33,435 nucleotides of DNA from Geosiphon pyriformis (taxonomy: Eukaryota; Glomeromycota; Glomeromycetes; Archaeosporales; Geosiphonaceae). The stretch is from contig JAAOMT010000722.1 in the NCBI GenBank assembly GCA_016748015.1, forward strand, positions 1-33,435. Reading direction: 5' to 3'. Both the position numbers and the translations under genes were made by a program. The first letter of the stretch is position 1; each line of letters begins with the position of its first letter. This document shows, one piece after another, positions 1 to 33,435 of the stretch. The notes under the pieces were generated by a model. That model was not told where the DNA came from. It saw only the letters and a list, made by a program, of their open reading frames with translations, and ran no database searches.

Positions 1-874
1 TCAATGCAGGAATTATTTGCGCAGTTAGTTGATTAAGTAGTTTGTAGTAGCAATCTTTTGATGATATTTCGAGGATTACATGATTCTGTTTTTTAGGGTG
101 CTACCAACTATATTCCTTATCGCTTACGATACATTGGTCTCTCACACTGTTGCCAAATGTATAAAGCCTGTGGCTTTGGGTTTGTCTTCACTCGCGCAAG
201 AATTAATGAGTCTCCATTGGTCAGAATTAAGGTCCGAAAAGAATTAATATAGTTGCATCATTCGAAAGATAGATTAAAATACTATAAACCGAGCCTTTTT
301 ATATTTATCATTAGATCGGAAAGCCTAGCTTACGAGAAAATAATTGAAAGCTTTCGTGAGAATGAATTAATGTTAGGAAAAGCCATTTCCCTTCTCCGAA
401 AGGTAAGCCAAATTGTTTTAGCAATATCCATTTATTTGATTGAATATGACTAAAAAAAGGTGATAAAATTCTTTCCAATACGTCAAGTTCCCAAATCAAT
501 TCAATTTGGTGGAGAGAATCCTCAAGAATCCTGAAACAAGAGTCGAAAAAGGTGATGAACGTGAAGTGGTATACAAATTGTTTGCATCCGGAGGTATTAG
601 AAATTAATATTTATATTTCATTTTCTTACTGAATGACATGATTTTGGTCAAATTGAAACTTCTTACCCGATTTAGTTGGATGAAATTTTCTCATTTATAT
701 TCACAATTTGTAGCTTCACTCAATGGTGCTTTCCCACATCCTACAACACGTGAGTTTATCTTAGAAACAGCCAAAAAAAACGACCCTTTAATTTCGAGGG
801 TAGTCCCGGCGAGGATGTATGTGCTTTTAAGTGAAAATGGAATGCGTTTGGTCGAAATGGGTGGCAAAGCATGA
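1..874 (+). CDS. RAB3GAP1: RAB3GAP1-like gene, 3' fragment (exons 7 partial to 11)
   Basis: This is the C-terminal part of the Rab3 GTPase-activating protein catalytic subunit, cut by the window start. Exons are read at 1-23, 97-231, 315-402, 488-593 and 714-874, all in GT-AG introns. The C-terminus carries the family-typical stretch PTTREFILETA followed by VPARMYVLLSENGMRLV, matching the conserved end of animal RAB3GAP1. It is the same sequence as the tail of the complete gene at 28453-33080. It is therefore most likely the same locus seen twice through the terminal repeat, not an independent paralogue. Confidence 0.85.
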
Positions 875-1229
875 TGTCATGGGGAATTTTTATCTATAAA
901 TCTAATGCTATGTATAGTTTAGACTGAAATAGAATCACAGCGATTTAATAAATCAAAAGTAACATAGTTATTAGTTATTAGAAATATAATTTGTAGCAAT
1001 TTGTAGATCTAAAGAACAATATATAAAAATAAGAATATATAGTTTCTATTGTACACGAAGAAATATCAAAATGTTCACATCTAAAATACTTTAAGTAATA
1101 AAAGTTCATTTTTCTTTACAGAAATGACATGTCCTTCACTTTCATCAGTGCAAGATGAAGACGCATGGCAAGTCTAAGAAAGGAAAACAGATGTAGAATT
1201 AGTTTATGATTGTAAAAAAAAAAAAAAAA
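1..1229. repeat. Left copy of a 1,229-bp terminal direct repeat
   Basis: This segment appears identical, base for base where compared, to 32207-33435 at a constant offset of 32,206. It contains the last exons of a RAB3GAP1-like gene and the last exon plus part of the last intron of the TTC39-like gene. The right copy stops exactly at the last A of a 16-A run (1214-1229 here), while the left copy continues into TTC39. This is the signature of a circular or tandem unit, or of overlapping contig ends. Confidence 0.97.
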
Positions 1230-3603
1230 GCAATTTTTTCGAGACTCACCTGAACTCAAATTCATAGCCATTGAATCCTGCTGCAGTATCCCAGACAGCT
1301 CGCGCTCGGTCAGTATTACCACGTAAAAACGCTGTAACTCCCGACTCCCAATAGGCGAATGGTACGATAAATTTCTCCTCATTTATTTCATTATCATGAT
1401 CAAAAATCCAATTCAGCGACGCCCTGTTTGTAAAATAAAAAATTATTATTAAAATTTTCAAATACAAAAATTTTATAACATCTGGAAACTCACGTAGCTT
1501 CCGTGTATTGTTGAAGCTGATTTAAAATTGAAGCTTTAATGAGATGTAAAGTGGCCTGTGGATCAATTAAATCGGATGTAGATAAAAGTTTCTTTCCTTT
1601 TCCATTATTAATACTACTACGTTTATTACTAAAATTGTGCAATCGTGCATTCACAATGTTCAAGCAGCGGGTCAAATCTTGCTCTTTCATAAATGCAAAG
1701 CCGTTCCATATCAGTAAAATTTCTAGACCAGGAAGTAACGTGTTTGCAAAATTTCCGCTGATGTATTGTTTTACTTTACGAGTAACATATTGTTCAATAA
1801 GTATGGTTCGTCCACCAAATTTTCTATTGACTAAATTTGGCACTTCTGTATAAATGGGGATGGCTTCTTCTTTTCGTCCTTCCATTTCTAGACAAGCGGC
1901 GTAGGAATATAGGAAAAACGCCTTGCTCCAATAATGTTCCTCTGATAACAATTTGAAGTATTCGCCAGCAGCTTTCCAATCCAATGTCATGGCTGCATTC
2001 ATTCCTAACTCGTATTGACAAAGACGCGCTAATTCAGCCCCAAAATCAGTGGCAATATTGCTACAGACGGATTTAAAAGCCTTAGTGGATGCATCAAGAT
2101 CACGGCGATAACGAAGATTTCGCCCGGAGAAAAAGGTGAAGAAGTCTGATCCGGGGAAATGTTCAAGTGCATCCTGGATGTATTTTTCTGCCTTTGGTAT
2201 CTTAAAAAGAAAAGTTATAAGTCAAACTATTTTTTAATTTGGAGATTTAAAGAAAGATCTTGTTGATTTGGGTAAAGCTTACATTTTCTGGGCCCAAAAC
2301 TGATGGGGCAAATGATGTTATAATTGAGTAGGCGCCTACAAATCTAAAATAAAATGGAATGGAATGAAATTTGAGATCCTTTTTATTGATTAAAAGCTCA
2401 ACTCGAGAAGACTTACAACAACGATGCCAGAGGGGATCTAATGCCTCGTCCTTGTAAACTCGCATTAACCAATTCAACCCCTAATTCTCGATTTCCCTTG
2501 TAACCAATTACTGAAATTATTTTGATTATTTTTCCTGCCAAGAAAGAGAGGACCAAATTACAGGTTCCAAACCTAAATATGATAAAATCTTGAGTTATTT
2601 CATAAATTTTGCATAATATTCTCAGTGACAAATCCTACCCAAATTCAACACCACCCTTGGTGTGAATATCCACAGGGGTGTTAAAACCAGGCTTTTTCAT
2701 TTCTTCAAACACCAGTTCATAGTTTTTATATCCTGAAAGAATGTTTGTCATTTAACTTGTTCTGATACTTGGGGAAATTCAATTTTGAATATTTACCACG
2801 TCTCAAGTTTAAACCAGCCTTAACATAGCTAGCTATGCTTTCCTGGGTCAATTGAACAAGTGCGATCAACAAAACCGATTCTGCTTTTATGACTGTACTT
2901 CGCAATTGTCCATTGGACATGTACTGGGAGTTTTTATTGGCATTATACCCGAAAAACTTGCTAAAGCTAGCGGCTATAGTGGGTTTTGAAGCTTGTAATT
3001 CAGCATTGGCTAATGTTTCAGCAACAGATAAATGTTTAATAGCTAGACTAATATCTTGTTCGTTGAAAGTTGTAATAGCTAAAAATGAAAGTGGATAGGT
3101 TTAGAAAGTATCAAATAGAAGTTATTGATTTAATTGAAATTGAAAAATGTTTTTACCTTTCAGAAAGGATACACACCCTCGACCAAGAGCGTATAAAGGA
3201 TCAGTGTCACTCCTCTCTGCAAAAATACTTTGGGCTTCAGAGTATCTGTTGCAAAAAAATGCTTTTACCTGGAAAAGAAATTTGAGGAAAACCTTCAAGG
3301 AATTGAATGAACAGTTTCTAGAATGGTAAAACTTGGTAAAAGAATCACAACTTACCCCTTGCAACATTCTTTCATCTATGTACATTCGAGAAAAGTAAGT
3401 ATGAATTCGAGATTTATATGAAAAGGGAGATTTTTGTGGTTCTCTTAAAGGCTTTTACCTTCTTTCTCTTGCTGTTCGGCCGTTAAGGTGTTGGCAGTGA
3501 TTTTGCTCACATCAACCGAAATATCGTTTTGTTCGACATCTAATGAATCATTAGCAGAATCAAGAGAAACCTCAGACATGTTTCCCTTATTTTTGGGAGC
3601 CAT
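1116..3603 (-). CDS. TTC39: TTC39/IML2-family tetratricopeptide-repeat protein
   Basis: Ten exons splice into 602 codons plus stop with consistent phases: 3603-3459, 3375-3356, 3268-3157, 3078-2797, 2732-2639, 2572-2417, 2343-2283, 2200-1494, 1423-1250 and 1173-1116. The order of motifs follows TTC39 proteins. First comes a short acidic N-terminus, then FFCNRYSEAQSIF with YALGRG. GGVEFGFGTCNLVLSFLAGK and VIGYKGNRELG follow, then TPR helices around WSKAFFLYSYAACLEMEGR. LLPGLEILLIWNGFAF precedes a final MRLHLALMKV helix. Yeast Iml2 of this family acts in inclusion-body clearance and binds lipid-droplet proteins; the role here is inferred. Exon 2 is only 20 nt. The gene is convergent with the RAB3GAP1-like gene. 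The start is the ATG at 3603, the first in a frame that splices cleanly. TTC39C or Iml2 orthology cannot be separated by eye. Confidence 0.88.
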
Positions 3604-3895
3604 GATTTGACAGTTTTTTGAGATGTAAGAGTAAAAATCAAGTTCGTGTGGCACACAAATTGAGAGTTAATATGCCTTTAGGTAATCATGATTGGTTACA
3701 TCAAAGATATTTTACGTCGCATATGATTGAGGGAAGTTGTCTTCAGAATAGAACAATAAAGGTTTATTAAAGTCTTTGTTGAACTACCTTCTTGTGTTTG
3801 ATTCATTCTTCCAATAGTAAAAGATAATCATTTAGCCAGAAAACATATTAAATTAAATAAATTGGGGATTTTAATAATTTAATTCTGTTCATAAT

Positions 3896-3937
3896 TGAAT
3901 GAATGAATGAATGAATGAATGAATGAATCAATCAATC
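3896..3937. repeat. (TGAA)8 microsatellite
   Basis: Eight TGAA units run from 3896 to 3927 and pass directly into a (TCAA)-type stretch, making a small mirrored tetranucleotide tract upstream of TTC39. There is no coding potential. The 3604-3985 interval around it is otherwise AT-rich and presumably holds the TTC39 promoter, but no clear TATA element was recognised. Confidence 0.9.
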
Positions 3938-3985
3938 GTTTATAATAAAAGGAAATATTTTTCTTTAAATATAATAATAAATAAA

Positions 3986-4276
3986 GGGAATTGCTAAATC
4001 GACCCACCCGCAACACGTGATATTATTTTACGTCATAGTTTCGTATTCACCTATATATAGGAACATATTAACGAATATTATGGTTGTCCACAACGAAGTG
4101 TTTTTTAATTTATAAAACACTATAAATTACTTAAGGCATAATAAAAAATTAAATATATAATCTATATTCAATTTTATATAAGAAAAAGTTATTTTTTATT
4201 TTAATTAATAAAAAAATATTAAAATTCTATATATATTAATATCACGTGTTGCGGGTGGGTCGATTTAGCAATTCCC
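3986..4276. mobile_element. MITE-like non-autonomous DNA transposon with perfect TIRs
   Basis: The 291-bp element is bounded by perfect 40-bp terminal inverted repeats at 3986-4025 and 4237-4276. The outermost bases are GGGAATTGCTAAATCGACCC. The sequence TAAATAAA occurs directly outside both ends (3978-3985 and 4277-4284), consistent with an 8-bp target-site duplication, although that sequence is low-complexity. Each TIR carries the palindrome CACGTG and is far more GC-rich than the 211-bp AT-rich core. The core contains no ORF of note but has a small inner hairpin around 4100-4128. Eight-bp duplications are known for hAT, P, Merlin and Novosib elements; the superfamily is not assigned. Confidence 0.85.
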
Positions 4277-4580
4277 TAAATAAATTATGTAATTAAAAGA
4301 TGATTTTGATTTTGATTTTTTGTTAATTTCATTTTTTAAAAAATGTTAGCTTAAATAAAATTTACTTGTGTTGTTTAAAACAAAGTTATGTTAAGTATTG
4401 TAAAAAAGATTATTTAATATTTAATATTTATTAATAATAATAATTATAAATAAAGTTTAATTTAATATTTTTTAGTTTATTAAAAAATTTAAAACCGAAT
4501 AGTTAAATGTCTTAATTAATATTATAAATATTAATAAAAAAATAATGATAAAAATAAAAACACGGAATTTTTTAATATGG

Positions 4581-4616
4581 CAAATGGAGATATTTTTAAA
4601 AAAATATCTCCATTTG
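4581..4616. repeat. 36-bp near-perfect palindrome
   Basis: Two 17-bp arms, beginning CAAATGGAGATATTTTT on the left, are exact reverse complements separated by only AA. The structure lies about 190 bp beyond the 3' end of the kinase gene. It could extrude as a cruciform or fold as an RNA hairpin. The rest of 4277-4805 is AT-rich with nothing else recognised. Confidence 0.85.
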
Positions 4617-4805
4617 TGTGTGAAAATAAGATGGCATAAAAGTATATCATTTTCTTATAATCTTTTATCATAACCCATCACAAATTATTAACTTCGTATA
4701 TATATTTTTATTAAAAGATGATTTCGCTAAATATATAAATAATTAAAATTAAAAAATCATGATTAGATCTATTTAAACTTATTTAAACGATTACACATGA
4801 AAAAT

Positions 4806-6321
4806 TCATTCAACTTTGTTACTCTCAGGTAAATAGACTAATTCTTTAAAAAGAAAGTTAAAATATGTAATTAAAGCAAATAAAATGAACCATTTTATAA
4901 AATAAATAAACAAACCTGTTGAAAAATTGACCATTTGAGCAGTTATAATACGACTTGTATAAACTGCTTCTGAATGAATTGCTATCGAGTCATTTTTTGC
5001 TGTTTTTCTTATGAGTTTATCTGATTTCCCAAAGTGTATCCATCTTTTAAACCTATTATTAATATTATTAAACTTATACAAATGGTTAAGTTCCATAAAC
5101 TTTCCTGTAAGTTCTCTAGCAGTAGGACGATTCTTAGGATTAGCATCCCAACACTTTTTAATGAGTTTACGGATAGAAGGTGGAATAAGTGGGGAGGTAA
5201 TATTAGGTCTTTGACCATTTAAAATAGCCATTATAAGGATTTCGTTATGAGGACAATCATAAAAAGGAGGTTTTCCTGTTGATAATTCCCATAATAACAT
5301 TCCTAGACTATAAATATCACCAGCTGTTGTAAACTTTTCTCCTCTTAAAACTTCTGGTGGAATTTATGGAATCACTCCAAATATCTTTTTTTCCTCTGTT
5401 GTTATTGTTGTTGTTGTTGCTTCATGGTTTGTAGGTTGACATAATCCGAGGTCTCCAATATTTACACAGTTTTCCCTTATTTGTAGGATGTTGCCCGAGT
5501 GTAAATCACGATGAACCATACCAGAAGAATGAATTGAAGAAAGTCCAATAGCTATATCAGACGCGAACTCTAATTTATTAGACCAACTCGTAGAATGAAA
5601 ATTTGTTGATAAATATTTTCGCATATCTCCATGTTCGGCAAACTCCATCACAATTCCATACTCGAGTGTTTCAGCGTTTCGCGTAATCCCCAATATTTTA
5701 GAGACATAAGAACTTCCATTTCGAATGTTATTAATCAAAATAGCATTTTGAATATATAACTATCAAAACACAGTGTAAAAAAAGATTAAATAAATAGATA
5801 ATATATATAGTAAATAAATAATAGGTAAATGTGAATTAAATTAATATATATAAATATAAATAGTTTGTTACCTCTTTAAACACTTCTGAACTGTTCGTTG
5901 GGATAATTTTTATTGCTACTTGCATCCCATTATTATGTCTTTCATATTCCATTTCACCATGATGTTTTATACTTTCTACATCAATAAATCCATCAATATA
6001 GGTCGCTTTATAAATTATCCCAAATCCTCCTCTAGCAATTTCGTTGATATCTGACAAACGCTCCCATGGAATCCATTCATAGTAATTCAATTCACCATAT
6101 TTATAAGTTTGATTAGGTGGAATATAGATTGGATTCTTAATTATTTTATCAATTTCTTCATAGCCACATGAAAAGTCTTTATAATGTTTTTCAAAAAACA
6201 TGAACTGGCATTCACTACAATTATTAGTCCTATTATATTTAATACTCTCTTGACACCGTTGACATTCATTGCAATCATGAGCGTATGGACGAGTCGTTCT
6301 TTTAATTTCTTTGTTTTCCAT
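4806..6321 (-). pseudogene. TKL-like protein kinase, one in-frame nonsense codon
   Basis: Three exons (6321-5872, 5759-4916, 4843-4806) join in phase to 443 codons interrupted only by TAA at 5366-5364. The N-terminus has a Cys-rich CxxC region (CNECQRC, CSEC; residues about 15-45). The kinase domain starts with the glycine loop ARGGFGIIYKA and the VAIK lysine. The catalytic loop VHRDLHSGN is intact, and DLG replaces DFG. The nonsense codon falls in GVIP*IPPEVL, where a tyrosine codon (TAT or TAC) would be expected just before the APE-like PPEV motif. IKKCWDANPKNRPTA marks the end of the domain. Such kinases are massively expanded in Glomeromycotina. A truncated product would lack the C-lobe. 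Either this is a young pseudogene or there is a single-base sequencing error. The start is the ATG at 6321; decayed copies align to the same point. A TATA-like ATATAAATAAG lies about 100 bp upstream. Confidence 0.85.
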
Positions 6322-6667
6322 GATATAAATAACGGACAAAGGATAAAATGATTATTCAAAGAGGGTTTCTTTAAAGGTTTATTTGATAGTACGTTTATAG
6401 TTATTTGTCTAAAGGCGAGTTCTTATTTATATTGTTTCGCATAGTGTAACCAATCAATTTATTAACCTTATTCATCAGACTGTGATTCGCTACAAATCAT
6501 ACTAAATAGGTTTAACTATGAACAAATCTAAGTAGCTATAATGCACAGAGACGCCAAACAAGTTTCCCATTGTCACATTGTCTTGTTACCTAAATTAAAT
6601 GAATAGTTCAATTTCTTTATATAACAACAACAATACTAATAAAAAAGATTTACGCTTTGTGTGATGC

Positions 6668-7045
6668 ATGAAAAATACCGTACTGCTGAAATTCTGTGAA
6701 GGCCAAAATTTTATCAAAACTTATCGTGTTTCTAAATTCCAAAAAAGGCCGACACTTAAATGTTATTTTTGTTTACCTTGATATCCACCGTTATATTGCC
6801 AGCCATTCACTAAAAAGCTTCAAGAAGCGCTTGCGATAAGTCGAATCTTCGGGGCATGTGTTCGAATGTTTGTTATAAAGGATTGGTATAGTAATGCGCT
6901 AAAGACCTTCGGATCCACTAAGACACCCATTAGTAAGATTTTGCTGATAATGGCACACAGGGAAAGGGTGTGGTTACCGACCGCGAAATTGAGAGCAGAA
7001 TATGAGAAGCACAGCATGATTTATGGAATTTGTCAGTTGCAATAA
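6668..7045 (+). pseudogene. Unrecognised reading frame with one internal TGA
   Basis: ATG at 6668 opens 37 codons, TGA follows at 6779-6781, and the same frame then runs open for 87 more codons to TAA at 7043-7045. The second part is rich in basic and hydrophobic residues (for example RMFVIKDWYSNALKTFG and MAHRERVWLPTAKLRAEYEK). It lies in an island of clearly higher GC than the surrounding desert. A short intron spanning the TGA (for example ending at the AG near 6800) is conceivable, but no strong donor is visible. I do not recognise the family. A short A-run follows at about 7203-7211. Nothing else was recognised in 6322-6667. Confidence 0.4.
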
Positions 7046-7209
7046 GATTAGGATTTTGGTTTGAGTGATAAGCTTAAATTTTTCTTTTATGGACTTAAAA
7101 TAATGTAATGATGATATGTTGAATAGTGCATAGTGTTGCCTTGATAGACTCGGGTGGCTGGTCACATGCGGACAAAGCGTGGGCCTCACTTTGTTGAGCA
7201 AATAAAAAA

Positions 7210-9400: not shown

Positions 9401-9407
9401 AGCAAAA

Positions 9408-15104: not shown

Positions 15105-16099
15105 ATTAATTGGCATAGAATTGGCCATTCTATTATAAGCCCAATAGCATATATGGTTTAAAGTATAAAGAAATATTTTGGAAAAAAAATTAGCTTATTA
15201 AAAATTCATCAACTTTTATTAACAACAGAATTAACAACAAAACAGCATTAACAACATTAAAAAAAGAGTAGAAAAATCTCCAATAACACCACAAACTGCT
15301 ATCTAAATATTAACACAGTTCATGTTTTTCTACATGTAACCAACCATCTAAGCCAATTAAGACCACAGTTAGGTACACAATCAACTATAAAAGTTATACT
15401 TAATCTTAAATGTCTTATTCTAAAAACACTTATGTAACAGCTCAGACTCACTATTTTATCTTTTTATATTAATCAATAGACCAATGTTAAAATTTTTGTT
15501 TTAATACAACATTTTCAAGATTTAATTTAAAATAATTATAAAACAAAAAGTATTAAATTTATTACAAGTTTAAATATTAAAAAAATGAAGCAATTTTTGA
15601 TAATATTTTACACAAATAAATATAGAATAAAAGTGATGTGCAAAATATATTCAGTTATCAAAAGATAAACTAATTAAATCATAAACTTTATGTTAACTAT
15701 TACTTATGAGTATAAATTTAAGATGATCAATGTAGATATTTTACTGTTCTAAAAGAAAGATTACACACAGGTTATGCATATCACAAATGGGGAAAATTAT
15801 CCCGATATTTCATATACAAATTTTTTTATCAAATCACAAATAGGAAAATTAATTTCTATTCTGAATTAATTTTATCCGATATTTCCAAAGAAATTTATAA
15901 GCGAAACTGGCAAACCTTTTTATTCTTAGATCTTCTATCAGACAAATGACGTTTTAAAGTTTGAGTAATTTTGGAAAAATGTATTTAAAAACACCTTGGC
16001 ACTTTTTTTTTTGAGGCATCTGAGATCTCAAAGTCAGATATAACAGCTACTTTTAATTCCTTTGAATATTCTTTTTCTAAATTTAATTTATCTTGCAAA

Positions 16100-17880
<1,781 letters not shown>

Positions 17881-19757
17881 CAACAATATTGAAATGTAGA
17901 AGTTGGAGTAGTGATTATTGGACTTGTCCTAATTGTAGTTAAAATAAAAGTTTTTTATTATATGAATAAATTAGCCAATTGTAACTTTTCTTTCTAAATA
18001 GCTTTCATTTTTGTCAAGATTTTGATAACAAATAATAAATAATAAATTAAATTTATTAAAAAGCAGTAATAGCATTGTTATAAAATGAAATAAAAACCAA
18101 AAAAACGTTTTTAGTCAATGTATCCGGATGTGAACACAAGAAATAATAGCATAATATCTAAAAGGTTGTATAAAAATTAATAACTCTAACCTGAAAATTA
18201 AAAGTAGATTTTCCGAAATAAATAATCTTTATTTCCTATTTGTTGTTTAACCTAATTATTTAAATAATAAGATAGAATTTGTTCAAATAATTTAAATTAA
18301 AATATTAAAAACTTTCCAATTTCGCATCTTGAGCGATTTTCCTATTTTTTTTTTGTAATAATTGAGATTTTTTTGCATACATGGTAATAATCTTTAAACA
18401 GAAATCAAAAATTTTATTAACAATGATTTTTAAAAACTATTTTTAAATAGACCAAAAAACGATTATTGACTCTTGTTTACGTGATTCTGAAGAGAGTGAT
18501 TACAATGTAAAGGTTTAATAATCTTTATAAGTCAATAAAAAAAAAAAAAAAAGATGAAAGATATAGAAATTTAATAAATTTAGTTTTAAAATTAATTAGT
18601 TATAAGAAAATAAAACTACAATTTGCAAATAACAACATAATTATACACATCAACGAATATTTAAAATTAAAGTTATACAGTTTATTTATGATTAATATTA
18701 AATATGTATTTTTGTTTTTTAAAAAAAAAAAATTTTTTTTGATTGCATTAAAAAACTACATAATATTTAAACTAGCTAATATATTATTTTTAAAATTTTT
18801 TAAAATTTTTGGTATATTATTTCTTAAACACAACTTTTTTAACTAAAGCTATATAAATTCTATTACTACTATTTATATTAAAATCTATGTATTTTAATAT
18901 TAAATTTTTTAAAATGTTAAAAATTAAAAATTTATTACCAAAAAAAATTACAACATAACTTTATATTTAAAAATACATAAAAATATATATTATCTAAAGA
19001 TTTAATATTATTATATATTAATATAATTTTTAACAGATTTTTTTACTATTATAAAATATTTAAATAAATGCGTACCATATCAACCAAAGAATTGGGAAAA
19101 TAATTTTTTTTTACATTTTTACACATTCAAATAAATAATACAAAAAGATTCAATATTTGTGTCAAATCATATTTATCAATTAACAAAGCTATTGTACAGT
19201 TTCAAGAAATTTAGCAGATTCTTTATCCCCCCCTTCTCCTTCTCCTCCTTCTCTCCTTTTATGCTTTTCCAGTAAGCACGAATTCTTGCGTATCCGTTAA
19301 ACGTATCATTGTCTCAGGGGATTCAAAAAGAATTTTTATCATTTAAAAATATTACACACCTCTTAATATAACAATCTGTCTAACTTTCCCTCCTCCTTTG
19401 AAATCAATAAAGCTAGTAAACCATTGTCTAAAATTAATTGAAATTACTCCTGATTTTTCATGAAAACCATGTATAATAATATTTATATTTGCGGTTCATT
19501 ACTTGTTGCGAAGTGGAATTATCTACAGATTTACTTCATTTTTTTCCAACAGTATACTTTTATAAATAAGTTAACCATTCAAAAGTTAACAAGTCATCAA
19601 GGAGGCATTGAATCAAAATGGCCTACTTTAATTTTCGAGATTTTGAACTAAATATCAGTAAAGGGAATAAAAATGTATTGTAAAGAATCGTGAAAATGCA
19701 TGTTTTGATTAAGAAACAGTTATCCTAAAGATCATCCATTTAAATTGTTAAGAATTG
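17881..19757. other. AT-rich intergenic region
   Basis: No gene was recognised. The region holds A/T homopolymers (18538-18552 and 18719-18731), a C/T-rich tract at 19228-19258 (TCCCCCCCTTCTCC and following), and probably the 3' UTR of the MATH-BTB gene near its right end. Open frames here have no recognisable similarity. Confidence 0.6.
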
Positions 19758-20948
19758 TCACAATCGAACCGTCGTGATAAATTCCTCAATCAAATCAACA
19801 TTGGCGTCACGTAAAATGTCTTTATAAGCCTCAGTCTCCCGAATAAATCTCCACTTTTTCCTTGTGAAACGATAAACAGCCTGGCGTAATTGAAAAACAT
19901 CGCTTTCCCAAGCAAACAATAATAAATTGTCCCATGTCTCATCGTTAATTAATGCTGCCATTCGGGCAATGATAAAGTCGATTAATTCATGAATGGCATC
20001 AATCTTAAGAGTTTTACGCATCTCTGCATCATTAAACAGTTTTTTGAGTTTAGCCACTTTGACGAGTTCCCCATCTCCAGTGATTTCCATCAGTGTCCCC
20101 GAATACAGATAATAAAGAATTGAATAAAATGTATCATAATCGACATCATGAACTGGAACGGGATTCTCTTGAAGTTTCCAATCATTCTTAATCAAAGTTT
20201 TAAAATAATGCGACCTCTCAGTCAAGATAAGTTGATGTGCATATATAACCTTTTCTTCCACTAAAAACTTGATATCACTGAATGTAGGATTATTCAAAGC
20301 TTGTCCGAAAGGTAGAAACTTTGCTGATTTGTTCAATACCGCTGATTGCTCTTCTACTTCATCACCATCATCACACCCAGGTTTCGGTGTGATGATAACA
20401 ACGTGCACAATTAAGGTATCATCATCAAAATGATGATGATGGTGAGGGAATAAAACTTTAATTTCTTGGCTGGCTGCATTGTTCGTTATTTTCTCACTTA
20501 ATGAAGTCTTTGGACAAAAATTTGGCCACCCCCAAGCTGGTTTCACTTTTAGAAACTCGTGACGTTCCGTACGTCTTTTCACCACTCGAACTGTACGCTC
20601 TTCTCCTTGTTGTACTGGGATGAAGAGACCAATGTAAAAGTTTACGTTCACTCTTGCACTAGCTGAGGCATCGTTAGGGAATATAGATTCCAGGTACAAG
20701 CTTAAATGGCCACCTTCAGAGTTATCAACATTACCATTTGGGTGAAGCTTGAGACGCCAATTCAGAGGTTTATAAGTACAACTGTTTTCCCCGTCAAACA
20801 TGCAAACGTTACAGTCCCATATCGGACTCTGTAGATACTGAGGTTTTGGTGTAAGAAGACAAACTTTGCTGAATTCAGGTATTACCCAGGTGTAGTGATG
20901 AATGATACTGGCGCCAATTGTAGGAAGCTCGTCAGTTAGGCTCTCCAT
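19758..20948 (-). CDS. MATH-BTB domain protein
   Basis: This is a single-exon gene of 396 codons, ATG at 20948. Residues about 15-185 resemble a MATH/TRAF fold: YTWVIPEFSKV, then WRLKLHPNGN, GGHLSLYLESIFP and a late FLKVKPAWGWPNF. A histidine run (HHHHH) sits in a loop near residue 170. Residues about 220-300 form a BTB/POZ domain: NNPTFSDIKFLVEEKVIYAH, then LTERSHYFKTLI and DTFYSILYYLYSG. A helical BACK-like tail follows. MATH-BTB proteins such as SPOP act as substrate adaptors of Cullin-3 ubiquitin ligases, with the MATH domain binding substrate; that role is inferred from the family. The family is strongly expanded in arbuscular-mycorrhizal fungi. A CRE-like and TATA-like module lies 84-117 bp upstream of the start. 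Confidence 0.9.
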   Translation of the reverse strand: MESLTDELPTIGASIIHHYTWVIPEFSKVCLLTPKPQYLQSPIWDCNVCMFDGENSCTYKPLNWRLKLHPNGNVDNSEGGHLSLYLESIFPNDASASARVNVNFYIGLFIPVQQGEERTVRVVKRRTERHEFLKVKPAWGWPNFCPKTSLSEKITNNAASQEIKVLFPHHHHHFDDDTLIVHVVIITPKPGCDDGDEVEEQSAVLNKSAKFLPFGQALNNPTFSDIKFLVEEKVIYAHQLILTERSHYFKTLIKNDWKLQENPVPVHDVDYDTFYSILYYLYSGTLMEITGDGELVKVAKLKKLFNDAEMRKTLKIDAIHELIDFIIARMAALINDETWDNLLLFAWESDVFQLRQAVYRFTRKKWRFIRETEAYKDILRDANVDLIEEFITTVRL

Positions 20949-21031
20949 GTCTCAAGTTCAAAGATTTGTATATTTTTGACCAATAATATCATCCGGCAAA
21001 ATTGTGATTCCGCTGATAAGCTCCTCTTAAG

Positions 21032-22560: not shown

Positions 22561-23275
22561 AAGACTATGAAATTTGCTAATTTATTAACATTAAATTAAT
22601 ATAACTATTATTAAAACAGTAAAGTTTTTTAATTTTAAGACAATTAGTAATAATTAATTTTTTCAAAATAAGTTTTAACTTTTTTGATAGTTTTATTTTT
22701 CTTTTTTTCTTTTTTTCTTTTAAAATTATTTTTTGATTATGTAAAGTAATAATTTTTTTAAATTAAAAACAGTTTTTAATTTTGTAAAAAAGTTTTTAAT
22801 AATTAATTTATTTTTTAAAATTTGCTAAGAAATTTTTAATATTTTTTTTTATGCTTATTAATATTATTTAAGTATTTTTTATTATATTTAACTTAATTAA
22901 GTTTTTAATCAGTATTGATTTTTATATTTTATTTATTAAAAATATTGATTAAATTGGTTTTAAACAAAAAAGCAATTATTGTAATAAAAATATTTCTGGT
23001 AATTTAATTTTATAGAAAAAAACACTTATATCAAAAATAACAAAATCTTAATTTTTAATAGCAAATTTAAGTTTTAAATTTTTTGGTTTTTAATAATTTG
23101 CATTCTTGAAAAAGCCATAAACAAATTCTTGGAATTTTCGCAAACCTAATAATTTTTAAAAATAAATTTCCAAACCACTTATAATAACAAAATATTGAAT
23201 TTATACAATTTACCTTGGTTTACAAAAAAACTTTTAATCAAAACAAAACTATTATTAAAGTTTAATTCAATACTT

Positions 23276-23933
23276 TCATAATACCCACAAATTACCAAAT
23301 GCAAATAAAACCAAAGTGGTATTATTTTTCTTTTGTCCACCCACATTGTCACAAGTAACTTTTAAATGCTTTTCTCTTTTATTCAATTGCTTAATTCCAT
23401 TGAAAACTTAACTAAGTGTACCATTTGAACCTTTTCCAAGAAGTTCATTCTTGTCAACAACATCATTAATTTGTTCACGAAACACTTCATCTTGGATACC
23501 AAACAAATGCATTTTGCGAGCACTAAGATAATACACCTTGCCAATCTGTTGATCTGAATGGGGCACATGAACATTTTGGGCCCAGTCGTAACTGTAATAA
23601 ACGGTAGCATCAACGCTGCGATATTGAGCCTTAACATGTGTCGGTGAATGTTGATTGACGAGCTTCCTTTGTTCTGCCAATTTGGTATTTTTGTTATAAT
23701 AATTCTTCTCTAACTTGGCTTTGGCTAGATGATCTTTAATAAATCTCAGCCTCTTCCTCTTTACAAGCTTTGAATTGCAAGTCATTCTGTAAATTTTGAC
23801 AAGTGTCGCATAAATCAGTTCGGGGGCTCATGATTTGGATATGCAGAGTTAGCTGATGCCACAATTTGCGAAAAGCATCATAATTCAAGACGCGCAAAGG
23901 GCTATCTTCTAGACCAGCCAGGTAATCATGCAT
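23276..23933 (-). pseudogene. Transposase-like protein relic (Cc8L18.2-like family)
   Basis: From ATG at 23933 the frame gives a Cys motif CDTCQNLQNDLQF, then shifts by one base near 23737. It continues KDHLAKAKLEKNYYNK, HYS-type YYSYDWAQNVHVPHSDQQIG, YYLSARKMHLFGIQ, and ELLGKGSNGTLS. TAA at 23410-23408 interrupts the frame, which resumes FNGIKQLNKREKHL and CDNVGGQKKNN before TGA at 23278-23276. The order CxxC, YSYDxAQxxHxP, then DNxGGQxKNN is typical of a widespread mobile-element-derived family with an RNase-H-like core. The DN Asp is a plausible catalytic residue. N- and C-terminal parts are missing. It lies head-to-head with, and about 55 bp from, the gene at 23988. Confidence 0.65.
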
Positions 23934-23987
23934 ATTTCACTGCTAGCATGTCATCTTTTTACAACTTTTAATCGTTAATGTGTATAG

Positions 23988-24746
23988 ACCTTGGTTAACC
24001 TTGACCTCAACGAGGAGAGCGGGGATTATGAGGATCTTATAGCTGGGTCGGAAACAAGAACAGATCAGGATGAGGTACAAGTACAATAGCCTCCCTTGAA
24101 GATGATTTAGTCATTGATCTTCTAATTCTTCTTTCACTTGCCAGGAGGAAAGCGCTGATGACATAAAGGTTGAGTTGAACAAGAAGTATATGAAGTTATC
24201 AAATGATCAAAAGTGGAAGCTTCCATCAGGTAAATACGAAGACATTTTTTACGAATGTGGTAAAAATTTACCCTATGTAAGGTGAGTGTCTGAAATGATG
24301 TACCTGGAAGTCCATTGTCAGGCTGCAGTCTGACTGTGCCTGTGCACTCATATTCTATCAGCGTGGTGCATAGCTTCATCATCGATATCAGCAAGACAAT
24401 CATGAATCTCTTCAGCGAGGAGGATCAAGATCAGATCACGACCCATAACGTTCTACGTGATCCAGAAATAGATAACGAGCTAATGGAATATCTGCTCAAT
24501 TATCGCAAAGTGAGTATTATTGTCAAGCTCAAATAGGAAGACGCGTATAAATTAAAACGGCTCTTCCGCATTCTCTAGATCCAACCTCAGGAAATGTGTG
24601 AAGTCATAAACGCGGGGATAAAAATCTCGCCCTATGATGCCAAGAAACATTTTAATTCTCATTATATTCATCAGGCCTTTCCGCAACTGTGAGTGATTGG
24701 GCTACATTCTGGGTGTATATTATTATTGATGTCTTTCATCTTATTA

Positions 24747-24789
<43 letters not shown>

Positions 24790-25754
24790 GATTTCTTTCC
24801 GTTTCGTGAATTTTGTTGCTATTAGGCTTCCCAGATACGAGCTGCGATCTAACGATTTTACTATGTCCCATCTGGAGGGATGGTTCACCAGCAACATCTG
24901 GAGCGTTATCATTGACCCCTGTTTCGTCGATGTCGAGACCGTAGAGTTTATTCAGTAAGCAATGCTGTTTATGTTCTGTTCTCACTTTTCAGTTTCAGGT
25001 CCTGTTATATATATATAAATCTTTCTTTTCAGAGGCGAAGGCTGTTCCCGTGCATCCGGAAAACGGAAGAATTCTGCGAGAGCTCAGAGACTAGGATGTT
25101 ACTCGGATACAAATGCGATGGGATAGTGCGGGAGTTAGAATCACCTGAGGAATTTGCAGTTAGCGAGGAAGGTCGGAATTGGACTGGAGAAGACGGCACG
25201 AAGTATTTGGTGGATGGGGGCCTGAAGATCTCCAAAATTATGCGGGATATGTTACATCAAAAATTGAGAAAGGGGTGTAATGTTGGGAGGTCTCGCAAGA
25301 TAGAAATCGTCGGCTTTCTACATTCTGGTAAATATCTTTGCTAATACGGTTTCCTTGTGTCTTCACTGGGTATACTGATTAATACGATTATATTACACCC
25401 AACATCTTCAAGTACTTACGATGGGTACTCCGGCCGGGTACATGTGCCAACTTCGAAGTTATACCTCTACGAAGGTCCCACCGACCCTTCATGATTCATC
25501 AGGTGCTCATCGGGAAAGTATGTTTCCTAAATTGTAATATATTTTTAGCCAATATCGCCATACTTACAGTTTGCGATTTACCCCAGCTTCGAAGTCTGGG
25601 TTCGAGCTGTGTACAACTCACCAGCAACCAAGTGTTGAAGGAACGCTTGAAAAAAAAGCCCATCAAGCTGCAAGCACACGACGATTACGACTTCCCAGAC
25701 ACACAGCGTACTCCCAAAAAAAATGGATTAAGAGGTTCATCGTGTAGAGGTTGA
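23988..25754 (+). pseudogene. Uncharacterised fungal family protein, 5'-truncated, possible frameshift
   Basis: Eight exons are read: 23988-24074, 24145-24281, 24329-24509, 24579-24688, 24826-24954, 25033 (or 25035)-25327, 25413-25517 and 25549-25754. Motifs in order: VHSFIIDISKTIMNLFSEED, LEGWFTSNIWSVIIDPCF, GEGCSRASGKRKN, and GYKCDGIVRELESPEEF. EEGRNWTGEDGTKYL, IVGFLHSG and GTPAGYMCQLRSYT follow. They match a large family I know from Rhizophagus-type genomes, function unknown. D(G)I, then E, then GRxxxGxxGTK recalls a PD-(D/E)XK nuclease-like pattern; that is inference. No start codon precedes the first exon, which begins after an acceptor AG, so the 5' end is lost or unseen. At exon 6, using acceptor 25032 keeps the conserved GEGCS motif but meets TAG at 25124. 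Acceptor 25034 stays open but loses the motif. Confidence 0.6.
24758..24789. repeat. (ATT)n microsatellite in an intron
   Basis: About ten ATT units lie in the intron between the exons ending at 24688 and starting at 24826, preceding the AG acceptor at 24824-24825. Confidence 0.9.
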
Positions 25755-25820
25755 TCGTCATGGTGGTAGACGAGGATGTAGAAACATCGTAATCCAAATT
25801 ATTAAAGAGTATCATTGAGT

Positions 25821-25875: not shown

Positions 25876-26092
25876 TACGCGTAAAATTCAAGCTTCCAAT
25901 ATTTATCGTGTTAAAACTAGGGTGAGTGATTTAAAAGCTGAAGACTTTGCTAGAGTAGCCGAGGAATATAAAGCAAAGCCAGTGACCAAATTAGTAGAGA
26001 AGCATGAAAACAGAGAGCATTAGGTTATACTTTTGGCTTGCTTACTCTGATTATTTTATTGAATCATTAGCAAAAATAAAATCTTGCTCGAG

Positions 26093-26142
26093 TGACGTCA
26101 CATGTTCACTTTGCCTGATTTTATTGCAGCACGCCCATATAA
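26093..26142 (+). promoter_or_regulatory. Promoter-like module, copy 3 (orphan)
   Basis: A perfect TGACGTCA (26093-26100) is followed by CATGTTCACTTTG, CCTGATTTTATTGCAGCACG and CCCATATAA (26134-26142). It points toward the 3' end of COQ1 on the opposite strand, with no sense gene recognised downstream. It is a direct repeat of the copy 272 bp upstream. Confidence 0.5.
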
Positions 26143-26331
26143 TTATTATATAAAAAGGAAGCAATGGACTAGGTCAATTGAATAAAACCTGTATAGCGTT
26201 CAGTGTAGATTCTTGGCTATTATATTAATTTTCTCCTTAAATATTATTCAATCTAGAACATCAACCTTTTGCCTCGATTCAAATAAATATATAATAAGAG
26301 TAATAATTCTTGTTTTTAATATCTACTATTT

Positions 26332-28060
26332 TCACCTATTTCGTGTCAAAACCTTTTCCGTAAGTTGTATGAGGGAGTATCTGGCCTTGGATTGAGGTAA
26401 TTTTAGAATAGAGGCGATGGCCTTTTGACAATGGGAAGCAGCCAATAACTTTGTTTTTTCAAGTCCTTTACTTTTGAAAACTATTTCCTGTGCCTTTGAA
26501 TAAAAAATATTTGAAATTATTAATCATTTATTATAAGACAGGAAAGAACTTTTAGCGAATTCAAGAGGAATAACAAACCAATTCGATGTCACCTTCGTAT
26601 TTAAATTCACGATCTATCAGCGGCCCAAGCTCTGGATATTCTTCCCAAGCATATAATATGGGTGCAGTGGCCAATCCGAGCTTTAAATCTGCACCCACAG
26701 GTTTTCCGAATTCGTTGGATGTAGCAATGAAATCTAACATATCGTCCACGAGCTACACGAAATCAGAGTAATAAGGATACGTAGAAATTTGATATATGGG
26801 TTTGGATACCTTTTGGGTAAAATAAGCGAGGAATATACCGCCATCAATCCGAAAAAATTGTAACAGGTTTATCAAATAGTATTACGAAAAAAACTCCACC
26901 TGGAATGCCAAACCCAGATTACGGCCATAAGCATATGCAATATCGCTCACTTCTTTAGTACAACCACCCAAAACTGATGCAGCACGACAGCTCTTAGCCA
27001 TCAGACTGGCTGTTTTCATATAGCTTTTTTCCATATAATAATCAAGTCTATTAGGATGATTTTTGTTGCTTCCAAGCTTTCCTTCCGGATTATTTTTTAA
27101 TTGCATAAATTCCCCTTCAACTAAATTTGCAATTACTGTCGCCAATAATTCAATAACCTCGGGATTACGAAGACGGGCCAGTGCAACAGAGGCACGAGCA
27201 AGCAAAAAATCGCCCGCAAGAATGGCCATTTTATTGCCAAAATTAGCGTTAGCTGAAGGAAGATTGCGACGTGATTCAGAAGCATCAATTACATCATCAT
27301 GAAGTAAAGTAGCTGTATGAATCATTTCCGTAATTTCTGCAAGACGGCGTTGAGTTGGTAGAATGCTAGTACCTTCAACCGAGAGTGAGGGATGATAAAG
27401 ATGGGGAGAATCGCAGTTCACAGTTGCCATACCTTCATTAATATTGAAGGATGAAGATGATAATGGTAGGTCTATATTTTGAAAATAATCTGTTTTTGCT
27501 ATTTTTGATTCTTTTGGCGTCAAACTTGTTGCTTGCGCCATTAACAATACAATTAAAGGCCTAATACGTTTTCCCTCAACTGTAAAATAATATTTGCTGA
27601 TTTTTTCCAATACTGGGTGCCCGCTACTCAACAATCTCTTAATGTTTTTCGTGAGATCCACTAAATCACTGCCCAAAAGTTTGATTGGATCAATATATGG
27701 GCCGCCTTTATGACCAACTAACAGCTCGGCTTCAGAAATTGCTTGATTCCATGAAGGTGCATTTTCAATTATCGTCAAATCGCCAGAATTGGGGCCGCTT
27801 GTTATAGAGTTAGCTTCCGGGAGTTTACTTTTAAATACAACATTTCTGAGATTTTTGCACCCATCCGCGATACGTTCAAAGATTGTAATCGGATTTTTAC
27901 CCTGGACAGTTGAATTTGTGGCATCTACAAATGGAGCTGAAGCCGTTGTTAAAATTGTGGATTTTGGGAGGAGCGCCTTAAGCCTATTGTTTCTAAACGA
28001 GGAAATAATACGAAAAGACGAATATTGCCTGGTTATACGATTAAGGAAAGTTTTTTTCAT
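26332..28060 (-). CDS. COQ1: Mitochondrial trans-polyprenyl diphosphate synthase (COQ1)
   Basis: Three exons (28060-26900, 26752-26579, 26493-26332) give 497 codons plus stop. The enzyme condenses isopentenyl diphosphate units to build the ubiquinone side chain, in mitochondria. The N-terminus MKKTFLNRITRQYSSFRI is basic, without early acidic residues, like a matrix presequence. GKRIRPLIVLLMAQA precedes the first aspartate-rich motif in LLHDDVIDASESRR. MAILAGDFLLARASVALARL and GEFMQL are the conserved helices. The second motif, LVDDMLDF, is rebuilt across the first splice junction after GLAFQ. The C-terminus GLEKTKLLAASHCQKAI and LTEKVLTRNR fits the family. An insert of about 50 residues between the RPL and DDVID motifs resembles those of other fungal orthologues. 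The frame is open upstream to 28135 but has no ATG, so 28060 is the start. The product chain length cannot be told. Confidence 0.93.
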
Positions 28061-28452
28061 TGCAAGAGGTTCTCCTTCCTCCACTTCCCTGAACTTGGGG
28101 CATGGAAAATACTTATTCAGAAAAAGACTAGACAATTAGATGAAAGCATTGTGTTTGCGCGTGAAAAATCAAAAAATTTTTTACGTAATGTGTCACCATA
28201 TGAATAGATATCAATGACACATCTAGGTATAGAGAATCTGCACAAACATCAGGGCAACACAAATTTTGCCCAAACTTGAGAAAAATTGTTTTTATTGCAG
28301 CTAATATAAAATGACTTGTCAAGCAGACCGACTTCTTTTTTCCTTGGGCTTTAGTTTACATTTTTGAAATGGTTGATTTCTCCCTATTAAAAAGTTGATA
28401 TAAAAATTAGCTTATAGAAATAATTTTGGTGGACACAAAACGAATTAGAATC
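28061..28452. promoter_or_regulatory. Shared intergenic region of divergent COQ1 and RAB3GAP1
   Basis: The 392 bp between two start codons on opposite strands must hold both promoters. A TATA-like TTGATATAAAAATTAG lies at 28395-28410, about 45-55 bp before the RAB3GAP1 ATG. No clear element was seen for COQ1. No other gene fits here. Confidence 0.5.
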
Positions 28453-31400
28453 ATGGACAAACAATTCCCCAACTCCTTGATAGTAGACGACGACAATTTT
28501 GAGTTCGTAGATTATGTTGCCTCTTCCTATTGGGAACGCTTTATTACCACTGTTGAAGAGGTCTTGACTGGTTGGGGTCTTAATGAAGGGAAACTCGGAA
28601 TTTTCGATGAGAAAGATCTACGTTCCTTTCGCCCAATCGATGGTGTTGTCAACCCTTTTGTTCAAAGAGAGATCATTATACTTGACGAAAACTCCTACAC
28701 TTTATCCTACCATTATCATCCTATAGAGTATGATGAGCGTTTTCAATTAGAAAAGGCTTCTTCCGCTGATGATTTGCTACTCAATCTGCAATCACCAGCT
28801 TCCACCTCTAACTTTATTTTACCAAAAAAATTTGATCCTCTTATTCCCAGCTTCGTGTTTCTGCCCCTTTCCTTTCCCAACTCACAAAAAGTTGATCCGC
28901 CAATTAATTTTCATAAAATTCACCGATGGACTGGCCTTACTCATATATTAGTGCTCACGCCGATTTCAATATCAGACCCTTTCCATTCTGGACCCGTATC
29001 TTATTCAACAACCATGGATCTTACCACAACAAAAAATCTACTTTCTTCTTTTGCAATTGCCTTCCGAAACACTAAATGCAAGCTACCTGTTTTTGTACCG
29101 GCAGGACAACTTGTCAATTCACTTTATGCTGGATATATGTGTATCTTTAATCAGGGAAATGATAGATCCCATGGAAATCATGTCGAATTAAAATTTAATA
29201 CAACCTTTACCCGTGATGTTCCTTCTGGCTGTTCACATTTAGCTGGCTTGACTAGTTTATTTTTACAAAAATTGGAATTAACACAGTCGCTGTTTGGTAA
29301 GTTCTTTTTTGATCTATCAGTCGTCTCAATTTTGGGTTCTCATTGCCAAATCAACCCAGCAATATTGAACGCTCTATGCTCAAGTGCGGTGTTTACCTAG
29401 ATCTGATCCAGATATCGTTTCAATCGGGTTCGGTTAACAGATCCGAAAAATGAGTCTTTTGATCTCAATGGTATCTCTGAGCCCAAAATATCGGTTGCAG
29501 CATTATTCTCTTACGAACTGCAAAATTGGGACGATGATGATTGGCGAAGACTTGATGATGATGATGATGATGATGATGATAATGGTGGTGGTGGTGGTGG
29601 TGGTGGTGGTAGTAGTATCAACAATATTAAACCATTGGAAAGCACAGGCCCCCCCTTTGAAGAAGACTTGTTCCTCCAGGACCTTGAAAGAGAAAACGCT
29701 AATGTTTTTGGAAAGCGTAAGGTCGCTCAATTAAATGAATTTTCAGAATCAAACCAAAACCTCAAGCTTTCGCGGATTGCTAGTCTCGTTCCCAATATAC
29801 CCTTCGGGCCTCAGAAAGACCCTCTTAAATCTGTTATCCTCACGGCTTTCTTTCCATCTTCTCCGCGAGATACTTATCTCGATGACGACGTTTTTACCGA
29901 AATAGACGCTGGAAGGGCCCAAATTTGGTTTCTGAAATGCAAGTTTTCTTCAGAAACCCCACCACATGCCTTACTCGCCACCATTCTTGAGGATTCTATA
30001 TCTTCATGGGTTAGGGATCGCTCGAATTCAAAGAGTTCGAAAACAGGTGAAAACAAATTATTTAATGGTAATAACACAAAAAGATCCAATGTTCCAAAGT
30101 TTTCGGGGACATTAAGAGCCCTTGAATCTCACATTTTTGACACTGGGCGCTCAACACGTTTAAATCTTGGTGGAGTTACCATTGTCGATACAGTTGAAAT
30201 AGATAACTTCATCCAAGGTTTATTTGATTCATCACGAAACATTGATAACTCCTTGTTACATTCCCCTGTTGGATCTTCTTGCGGAGTTTCTCTTATTTTA
30301 ACACCTGAATTAAGTCGCAATTTGCGCTATGCCACAACTTTCCCATATAAGTCTTTTTTATGGAATTTTCTTGAATATTTACTAGAGACAGTGTCTCCAA
30401 CCTCTAAGTTTCAGCACTGTTCTTCACTCATGGGATCTCTCAAAATCTTATGGGCTGAAGTGTTAAAACATATTCGCCTGTATTGGGAGAGAGGTGACGC
30501 CATACCAAATATCAACCTCAATACCTTGAATGACAAGTGTTTCTCCAAAAATCCTGTATTTTTGGATCAACGGAACACCACTAGCGTTTATGATGTTGTC
30601 GAGAAAAATTATATGAGCAATATTGGGATTGATATGAGCTCCAATTTGATTCATCAAAAGTTATGCATGATTAATTGTTGTACATCCCGCCTTCAAAAGA
30701 TACAAAAAGAAAATTCCAAACTTTCTATTAGCTCTATATTCAGTAAAACAAGCCTACCATCAAACAGCTCTATGTCTTCATCATTCAACTCCCTCAACAA
30801 GCATAATAAAAATGTATTTGTTTCTATGAATGAACAAAAACAGAAAAATACAGAAGGGAAAAATAACTGTATAATTCCGCTAGATGGTTATGATGATCCT
30901 AATTCAGTTGACCCATCAGAACCTAATGGTGGGATTGAGAATTCAAAGATGGCAAATGTATCAACCAGCGTAGAAAATGTAGGTTTCCTTTACGCAATAA
31001 ATTATGGATATTTGAACATATTAATAGTATTAATATTGATTATATCAATACATAGATGCAGTCTCCAAATGCTGACCTATCTTTTTTTGTACCCGAAGAG
31101 GACGATGAACCATTTCTTACAAACGTATCAGTATCCCCGTTGGGTATTCCTCAAAATGCTGAAAATGCTCACAGATCTGTTTTACAACATCGACCTTCCC
31201 CCTCTTCTTTCTCCCACGGACAATCTTTCTCGCCAACTCATTCTCTCTTTTCTGATCATTCTGATCCGAATATCCACTCATCCTCCTTAACCGAATCTTT
31301 CATTCAACTTAATTATTCCTCTAGCATGGAGTCATCATCGGGATTCGAATTCTCTGGTCGGTCACCTAGGGCAGACAATAAGATTTCCGGGAAAGGGGAA

Positions 31401-33080
31401 TCAAAAGAGGGAGATGAGTGTTTTGAAGTTAAGGACGAGAATATGAGAGAAGGGCATTTATACGTTTTTGAAGGCCATATCTTGCTTAAAACTGGTGAAC
31501 CGATGTGGGTGCCTGCCATACAGGTATTTTGGGTAGATGTATCATTTATGGAATTTTGAATAATCTGACAACTTGGATGTTTAGGACAATGGCTTCATGA
31601 CTGAAGATATGATTCGGGAACAAGAGGAGTATTTTGAGAAGCTGGGAAATTCTGAGGAGGCAGTCAAGAAAAGAGCCCAACTTCAATCTGCCCATTTAAA
31701 ATCTGGTATATTCTCAGTCATATAAAGTTTATTTATATTATAGCTTTAATGACAAGGACACATTAAACTATATCCCAATTATTCCATAAATTAGACATGG
31801 AAGCCTTTAAAGCTGCAAATCCTCATGCTACGTTCGAGGATTTCGTTAGATGGCATTCACCGCGAGACTGGATCCCTAACAACAGTGGTGACATCAATAG
31901 TGGTAATTTAAGTCCTAGAATGGCAAGGGAGGAAAATTTTTGGAAAGAATTGTGGAAGGTATTAATGGTGTTTTATTTCTTTCTGCTCAAACCTAAAAAT
32001 TGAATAATATAATTAATTGCGAAGATAATATCTAATGGATCTAGAATGCACGCAGAATACCTGCCAGTCGACAAAGGCCTTTATTCAATCATAACAGAGA
32101 AGGTGAAAAAGTAGGTGAAAATATGCTTATTTCATTTGTTTGTTTATCTAACTTAAATTTATTTGAACCCTTAATTTCATAGGCTCTTCGCTTTCTTGAG
32201 CAGTTATCAATGCAGGAATTATTTGCGCAGTTAGTTGATTAAGTAGTTTGTAGTAGCAATCTTTTGATGATATTTCGAGGATTACATGATTCTGTTTTTT
32301 AGGGTGCTACCAACTATATTCCTTATCGCTTACGATACATTGGTCTCTCACACTGTTGCCAAATGTATAAAGCCTGTGGCTTTGGGTTTGTCTTCACTCG
32401 CGCAAGAATTAATGAGTCTCCATTGGTCAGAATTAAGGTCCGAAAAGAATTAATATAGTTGCATCATTCGAAAGATAGATTAAAATACTATAAACCGAGC
32501 CTTTTTATATTTATCATTAGATCGGAAAGCCTAGCTTACGAGAAAATAATTGAAAGCTTTCGTGAGAATGAATTAATGTTAGGAAAAGCCATTTCCCTTC
32601 TCCGAAAGGTAAGCCAAATTGTTTTAGCAATATCCATTTATTTGATTGAATATGACTAAAAAAAGGTGATAAAATTCTTTCCAATACGTCAAGTTCCCAA
32701 ATCAATTCAATTTGGTGGAGAGAATCCTCAAGAATCCTGAAACAAGAGTCGAAAAAGGTGATGAACGTGAAGTGGTATACAAATTGTTTGCATCCGGAGG
32801 TATTAGAAATTAATATTTATATTTCATTTTCTTACTGAATGACATGATTTTGGTCAAATTGAAACTTCTTACCCGATTTAGTTGGATGAAATTTTCTCAT
32901 TTATATTCACAATTTGTAGCTTCACTCAATGGTGCTTTCCCACATCCTACAACACGTGAGTTTATCTTAGAAACAGCCAAAAAAAACGACCCTTTAATTT
33001 CGAGGGTAGTCCCGGCGAGGATGTATGTGCTTTTAAGTGAAAATGGAATGCGTTTGGTCGAAATGGGTGGCAAAGCATGA
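28453..33080 (+). CDS. RAB3GAP1: Rab3 GTPase-activating protein catalytic subunit-like
   Basis: Eleven exons: 28453-29296, 29401-30978, 31056-31523, 31585-31705, 31795-31958, 32045-32110, 32183-32229, 32303-32437, 32521-32608, 32694-32799 and 32920-33080. RAB3GAP1 with RAB3GAP2 regulates Rab3/Rab18-type GTPases at the ER and in secretion and lipid-droplet traffic. FEFVDYVASSYWERFITTVE opens the protein. The GAP region is clear: LYVFEGHILLKTGEPMWVP, then MTEDMIREQEEYFEKLGNS, SDMEAFKAANPHATFEDFVR with WHSPRDW, and RRIPASRQRPLF. The C-terminus is REFILETA and PARMYVLL. Exon lengths sum to 3,778 nt, one more than a multiple of three. The frame breaks at AAAAA (29446-29450); with one A fewer, all exons would be in phase. 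So there is one frameshift or homopolymer error, or an unseen intron. A (GAT)9-AAT-(GGT)9 tract encodes Asp and Gly runs. The ATG at 28453 is the first in frame. Confidence 0.9.
29554..29610 (+). repeat. Coding (GAT)9-AAT-(GGT)9 microsatellite
   Basis: Nine GAT codons (29554-29580), one AAT and nine GGT codons (29584-29610) encode nine Asp, one Asn and nine Gly inside exon 2 of the RAB3GAP1-like gene. They probably form a disordered linker. Slippage here would change length in whole codons. Confidence 0.9.
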
Positions 33081-33435
33081 TGTCATGGGGAATTTTTATC
33101 TATAAATCTAATGCTATGTATAGTTTAGACTGAAATAGAATCACAGCGATTTAATAAATCAAAAGTAACATAGTTATTAGTTATTAGAAATATAATTTGT
33201 AGCAATTTGTAGATCTAAAGAACAATATATAAAAATAAGAATATATAGTTTCTATTGTACACGAAGAAATATCAAAATGTTCACATCTAAAATACTTTAA
33301 GTAATAAAAGTTCATTTTTCTTTACAGAAATGACATGTCCTTCACTTTCATCAGTGCAAGATGAAGACGCATGGCAAGTCTAAGAAAGGAAAACAGATGT
33401 AGAATTAGTTTATGATTGTAAAAAAAAAAAAAAAA
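32207..33435. repeat. Right copy of the 1,229-bp terminal direct repeat
   Basis: This is the same as 1-1229 at an offset of 32,206, including introns and the 16-A run at 33420-33435. The window ends on the last A of that run, whereas the left copy continues with GCAATTTTTT. It begins inside exon 7 of the RAB3GAP1-like gene. Confidence 0.97.
33322..33435 (-). CDS. TTC39: TTC39/IML2-family gene, last exon only (cut by window end)
   Basis: Exon 33379-33322 encodes the terminal MRLHLALMKVKDMSFL, and the rest is the start of the preceding intron. It is the right-hand view of the same 3' end seen complete at 1116-3603. It converges with the RAB3GAP1-like gene, whose stop is 241 bp away. Confidence 0.85.
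   Translation of the reverse strand, partial: FFFFFYNHKLILHLFSFLRLAMRLHLALMKVKDMSFL

Follow-up and report, generated by a model that had tools for sequence, protein, structure and literature searches.

A contig assembled from a circular replicon can show overlapping ends, and extrachromosomal circles can form between direct repeats. Circular DNA of eukaryotes is treated in PMC7430651, the accessible part of which has a section on direct repeat loci. False duplication in assemblies has also been described (Genome Biology 2022, PMC9516828); in the accessible text of that source one locus stands twice on one scaffold, with no divergence and with truncated second gene copies, the causes are haplotype differences and sequencing errors, and the mark is a gap between the two copies. 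Literature on circular DNA retrieved with mycorrhizal or fungal terms held no title or abstract opening on circles in mycorrhizal fungi, and a literature search on chimeric contigs found nothing.

The stretch analysed here (the window; 33,435 bases, C106:1-33435, from a contig of 54,825 bases in total) shares the exact suffix-prefix overlap of a contig from a circular replicon, but it differs in that the contig continues past the second copy, carries eukaryotic genes with introns, and closes its ring through a repeat that reads as a hybrid. The doubled locus, the lack of divergence and the truncated second gene copies are those of the false duplications in PMC9516828; unlike there, a run of N lies behind the second copy, and the probable cause would be a crossing between kinase repeats that closes a cycle. 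As for extrachromosomal circular DNA of the kind covered in PMC7430651, recombination between the kinase repeats would give exactly this ring, seen here in the assembled letters.

Letter-by-letter comparison of the two ends found agreement at 1,229 of 1,229 positions (1-1229 and 32207-33435; 0 mismatches), as the initial annotation had claimed, and no exact suffix-prefix overlap of the window is longer. This overlap, hereafter R (copies R1 and R2), is far beyond chance. In the whole assembly (124,688,122 bases, 406 contigs) R was found at these two places only (2 candidates, both scored), a search in which, as in the other assembly searches below, absence of a match is not proof of absence; a dispersed repeat was ruled out on this ground. 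R is an exact end overlap whose visible edges are set by the limits of the data and are not biological ends: the outer edges coincide with the first base of C106 (R1) and with the last base ahead of the N run (R2). The earlier claim that the window closes on itself holds for the exact overlap of the ends, but the contig runs past 33435 to 54,825, with 3,906 N followed by 17,484 bases (C106:37342-54825; the post-N piece), and because it continues beyond the N run it is not a closed molecule as assembled.

As a baseline, the first and last 1,300 bases were compared in 20 other contigs. Six of the 20 start with N throughout the first 1,300 bases, so that their ends are not comparable, and no direct end overlap, exact or near-exact, was found in the other 14, which makes such an overlap unusual in this assembly. 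The ends of C109 gave a weak internal match (69% over 227 columns). Separately, C20 starts and ends with the same 340 bases in inverted orientation (an exact match), which may mark it as a fold-back contig, and the starts of C104 and C109 resemble CCCTAA telomere repeats (12 bases seen).

Table 1. Features of the window; positions count from its first base.
Feature	Position	Strand	Remarks
R1	1..1229		First copy; Rab3GAP1 3' exons (+), TTC39 last exon (-), poly-A run 1214-1229
TTC39/Iml2 gene	1116..3100	-	5' end approximate; last exon 1173-1116 within R1
Protein kinase gene	4806..6351	-	Reads as hybrid of two paralogues; in-frame TAA 5366-5364
Post-N-like stretch	5119..5363		245 bp identical to start after N run (C106:37342)
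C402-like stretch	5262..5562		300/301 vs C402 right end, where C402 stops
Switch zone	5262..5363		102 bp shared without mismatch by window, post-N piece and C402 end; putative loop closure place
Aldo-keto reductase gene	15900..18400	+	Other matches found: three copies on C402
MATH-BTB protein gene	19758..20951	-	
Polyprenyl synthetase gene	26882..28135	-	Open frame
Rab3GAP1 gene	28411..33080	+	5' end approximate, from open frame; complete only with R2
Rab3GAP1 exon	32183..32229	+	Spans R2 left edge 32207; donor 32229 or 32233, splice sites by eye
R2	32207..33435		Second copy, 1229/1229 identical; N follows

Both inner edges of R are crossed by genes (Table 1). The exon of Rab3GAP1 at the left edge of R2 leads by open GT-AG intron chains to a stop codon at 33078-33080 (872-874 in R1), and at the right edge of R1 the last intron of TTC39 (1249-1174) spans 1229/1230, its upstream exon ending at 1250. 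The two stop codons lie tail-to-tail, 241 bp apart. The Pfam profile Rab3-GTPase_cat matches 31585-31704 and 31791-31958 and the profile Iml2-TPR_39 matches three places within 1517-3082 (one reading through a stop), and in the whole assembly no further Rab3GAP or Iml2 profile match was found outside C106. These matches agree with the names given in the initial annotation (RAB3GAP1 and TTC39), and the layout of exons and stops across the junction confirms that the genes are convergent. R thus lies in a native single-copy locus, with an exon and an intron spanning its edges and with the profiles in C106 only.

For the Rab3GAP1 splice model, ranges of splice sites were picked by eye with the acceptor fixed at 32182, and 64 chains stay open. 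One of the 64 can be aligned in a single stretch, residues 1-170, with human Rab3GAP1 (8vyb); R starts at chain residue 85, and the alignment to the human protein is weaker past about residue 97. The C-terminal Rab3GAP profile was considered as proof of continuity and set aside as weak: the R1 frame 608-871 alone matched Rab3-GAP_cat_C at E 0.0067, below the curated cut-off, the spliced chain gave no match to this profile at E 0.01, and the chain's Rab3-GTPase_cat match stops at residue 82, three residues ahead of R. The main support for continuity of the predicted Rab3GAP1 chain is the splice model together with the human alignment. Since both edges of R lie inside genes that read through them, 32206/1 is a normal boundary between convergent genes. 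A break inside the 241 bp would also keep both genes whole, but needs a special place. With 32206/1 native, reads spanning it are expected under every hypothesis, so the mapping of long reads across this junction, proposed earlier as a test, is not decisive.

If R is normal, the odd join must sit between 1230 and 32206. The kinase gene in this interval matches kinase profiles at 4809-5363 and 5367-5759 (no kinase profile match in 5839-6351), and two other sequence ends fall within it: the right end of C402 (763,939 bases) at window 5562 and the start of the post-N piece at window 5119. Left of the switch zone (5119-5261), the post-N piece agrees with the window at 143/143 positions and C402 at 133/143 only (372/462 alignment columns over 4699-5118); after 5363, the identity of the post-N piece drops, and the C402 end agrees with the window at 198/199 positions (5364-5562). 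With the three sequences compared column by column, the window follows the post-N piece at 10/10 informative columns in 5138-5261 and with C402 at 35/36 in 5364-5562, where 15 of the 36 columns are one insertion in the post-N piece; at position 5466 the window stands alone and differs from C402 too.

Site by site, ten copies or pieces were compared (the start of the post-N piece, the end of C402 and eight more, a part of all kinase copies). The window shares 5246 T and 5261 A with the post-N piece alone (9 other copies differ), and 5364 T, 5475 C and 5480 T with the C402 end alone (8 other copies differ); private variants on swapped sides, shared by window and C402 on the left or by window and post-N piece on the right, numbered 0 among the compared copies. 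The T at 5364 creates the in-frame TAA and is carried by the window and the C402 end only among these copies, being absent in the 8 others that cover the site. The kinase stretch has at least 40 matches in the assembly (best 40 of 237 candidates scored, window included). The window-C402 link on the right side is strong in these alignments, because the next best copy there reaches 177/199 and the post-N piece 178/214 columns. On the left side, three other copies (140-141/143) come near the post-N piece; the link there is therefore carried by the two private sites plus the gap distance, the end of R1 lying 3,889 bases from window 5119 as against 3,906 N in the run (a difference of 17 bases).

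Independent support for the link between window and C402 comes from the aldo-keto reductase stretch: the assembly search gave four candidates, each of them scored, and these are the window itself and three copies on C402, with none found on another contig. All three copies, in the same orientation, lie within the final 50 kb of C402, between 715,472 and 761,986. Over 1,204 aligned columns, gaps left out, the post-N piece is 93.2% identical to the window kinase, and seven other long kinase copies are 89.3-93.4% identical to it; a uniformly diverged second copy of the unit was therefore ruled out for the post-N piece, its identity being within the range of the other copies and only its first 245 bases being identical.

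The window kinase reads as a hybrid with an internal switch between repeat copies in 5262-5363, and the two other sequence ends hang there. On balance, we think it probable that the terminal repeat is one linear locus written twice by a repeat-mediated chimeric contig. The order on the chromosome would be C402, window 5364-32206, R, window 1230-5118 and the post-N piece, with each gene present once; two directly oriented kinase paralogues, separated by about 32.2 kb, would have 102 identical bases in common. In assembly, the left side of the second paralogue would have been connected with the right side of the first one, closing a cycle and leaving C402 and the post-N piece hanging; the contig would have been written out until it met itself, its ends overlapping by 1,229 bases, and the genuine downstream sequence would have been set after R2 from linking data, at a gap near the length of 1230-5118. 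We infer both this linear order and the assembler's way of working from the alignments. On this reading, undoing one crossover would explain together the end overlap, the ring, the length of the N run and the places where the post-N piece starts and C402 stops.

We take the switch to be an assembly error, probably not a recombinant in the DNA, because no more than a short stretch is shared (102 bases) and both regular adjacencies are represented, one by the C402 end and the other by the post-N start. The analysis supports the assembly artefact to which the initial annotation leaned. Counted against a chimeric contig are the close copies on the left (140-141/143), the C402 mismatch at 5466, the contigs starting with N (6/20) and the lack of an end overlap in 14 contigs. 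Should the preferred reading hold, it is a correction that explains a false ring and false partial gene copies, and C402 could be extended by the unit in the window and by the 17 kb after the N run.

Recombination of the kinases in the DNA itself, leaving a tandem duplication or releasing an excised circle, would produce these letters equally well. That kinase paralogues about 32 kb apart recombine in vivo to yield a 32.2-kb circle or tandem duplication seems to us possible but doubtful. If they did, the copy number of housekeeping genes (Rab3GAP1, TTC39, polyprenyl synthetase) would be changed by an expanded kinase family; if the hybrid kinase is real, expanded kinase families would be recombination sites that alter the dose of unrelated genes.

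The better surviving form of such recombination, which we nevertheless regard as unlikely, is a real tandem duplication, in which unequal crossing-over between kinase paralogues would have doubled the 32.2-kb unit with the hybrid kinase between the two units, and the assembler would have collapsed them. It predicts the same hybrid kinase, C402 end, post-N start and gap length, and the numerous kinase copies (at least 40 matches, seven of them long and at 89.3-93.4%) would be a natural substrate for unequal exchange. A tandem duplication needs an extra event, however, and searches of the assembly with R and with the Rab3GAP and Iml2 profiles found no second unit, although collapse or the N run would hide one.

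Far less probable, in our estimate, is a 32,206-bp extrachromosomal circle that would have been excised by exchange between direct kinase repeats. The circle predicted from such an exchange is the contig read as a ring; it would carry Rab3GAP1, TTC39, polyprenyl synthetase, the MATH-BTB gene and the aldo-keto reductase, and the junction specific to it would be 5262-5363 and not 32206/1. No part of the sequence demands such a circle, and a ring would not include the post-N piece that stands behind R2.

We give an equally slim chance to the N run hiding a real second copy of 1230-5118; R, TTC39 and the 3' portion of the kinase, about 5.4 kb together, would then form a partial duplication whose end lies inside the kinase. 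R2 is identical to R1, and the first 245 bp of the post-N piece repeat 5119-5363 exactly, close to the distance expected, as such a copy would have it; the 6 of 20 contigs that start with N are poorly explained by assembly gaps, so the N run of C106 may likewise be a withheld stretch. Six small contigs (3 whole, 3 in large part) held no internal N run and one N run at a contig start, and together with the contigs starting with N this speaks for withheld stretches generally. Against a hidden copy, a length off by 17 bases is more in keeping with an estimated gap than with a perfect copy, and both the ending of C402 in the same kinase with the right-hand variants and the reductase copies on C402 are left unexplained. 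We infer that the N run of C106 marks a gap in the assembly, probably not withheld sequence. An organelle circle was dismissed, the window being without tRNA (bacterial code) and without an Rfam match at the gathering threshold; a COX1 search of the assembly, meant as a positive control for how a circle gets written, gave no match.

The interval 4.4-18.4 kb of the window is a belt of repeats with the kinase gene, a kinase fragment (weak profile match) and the aldo-keto reductase, and its G+C falls to 12%. The expanded kinases and the MATH-BTB gene here presumably recall arbuscular mycorrhizal fungi. G+C of the window is 28.6%; the accessible parts of two sources give 27.2% for Rhizophagus clarus (PMC6007072) and an expanded kinase repertoire of 2,533 members for R. 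irregularis (PMC10234402).

Several further features lie in the window and in the post-N piece. A short interspersed element at 3953-4320, with inverted arms at 3962-4047 and 4215-4300, resembles a MITE; a search with 2800-4690 gave 118 matches on many contigs, most of the listed ones to this element. The repeat family at 23256-23930 has at least 32 places among the matches listed (main pieces), at 69-83% identity, and holds a 139-codon open frame on the minus strand that is without a Pfam match. The stretch 24165-25768 is 66% identical to C3:101350-102937, has open frames on both strands, of which the three tested gave no Pfam match, and possibly belongs to an unnamed gene family. The post-N piece carries large inverted repeats of its own (in its own coordinates): 1-1432 against 7592-6198 (91%), 1434-1902 against 5789-5320 (97%), and 3426-3523 and 3627-4744 against 17484-16284 (93-95%).
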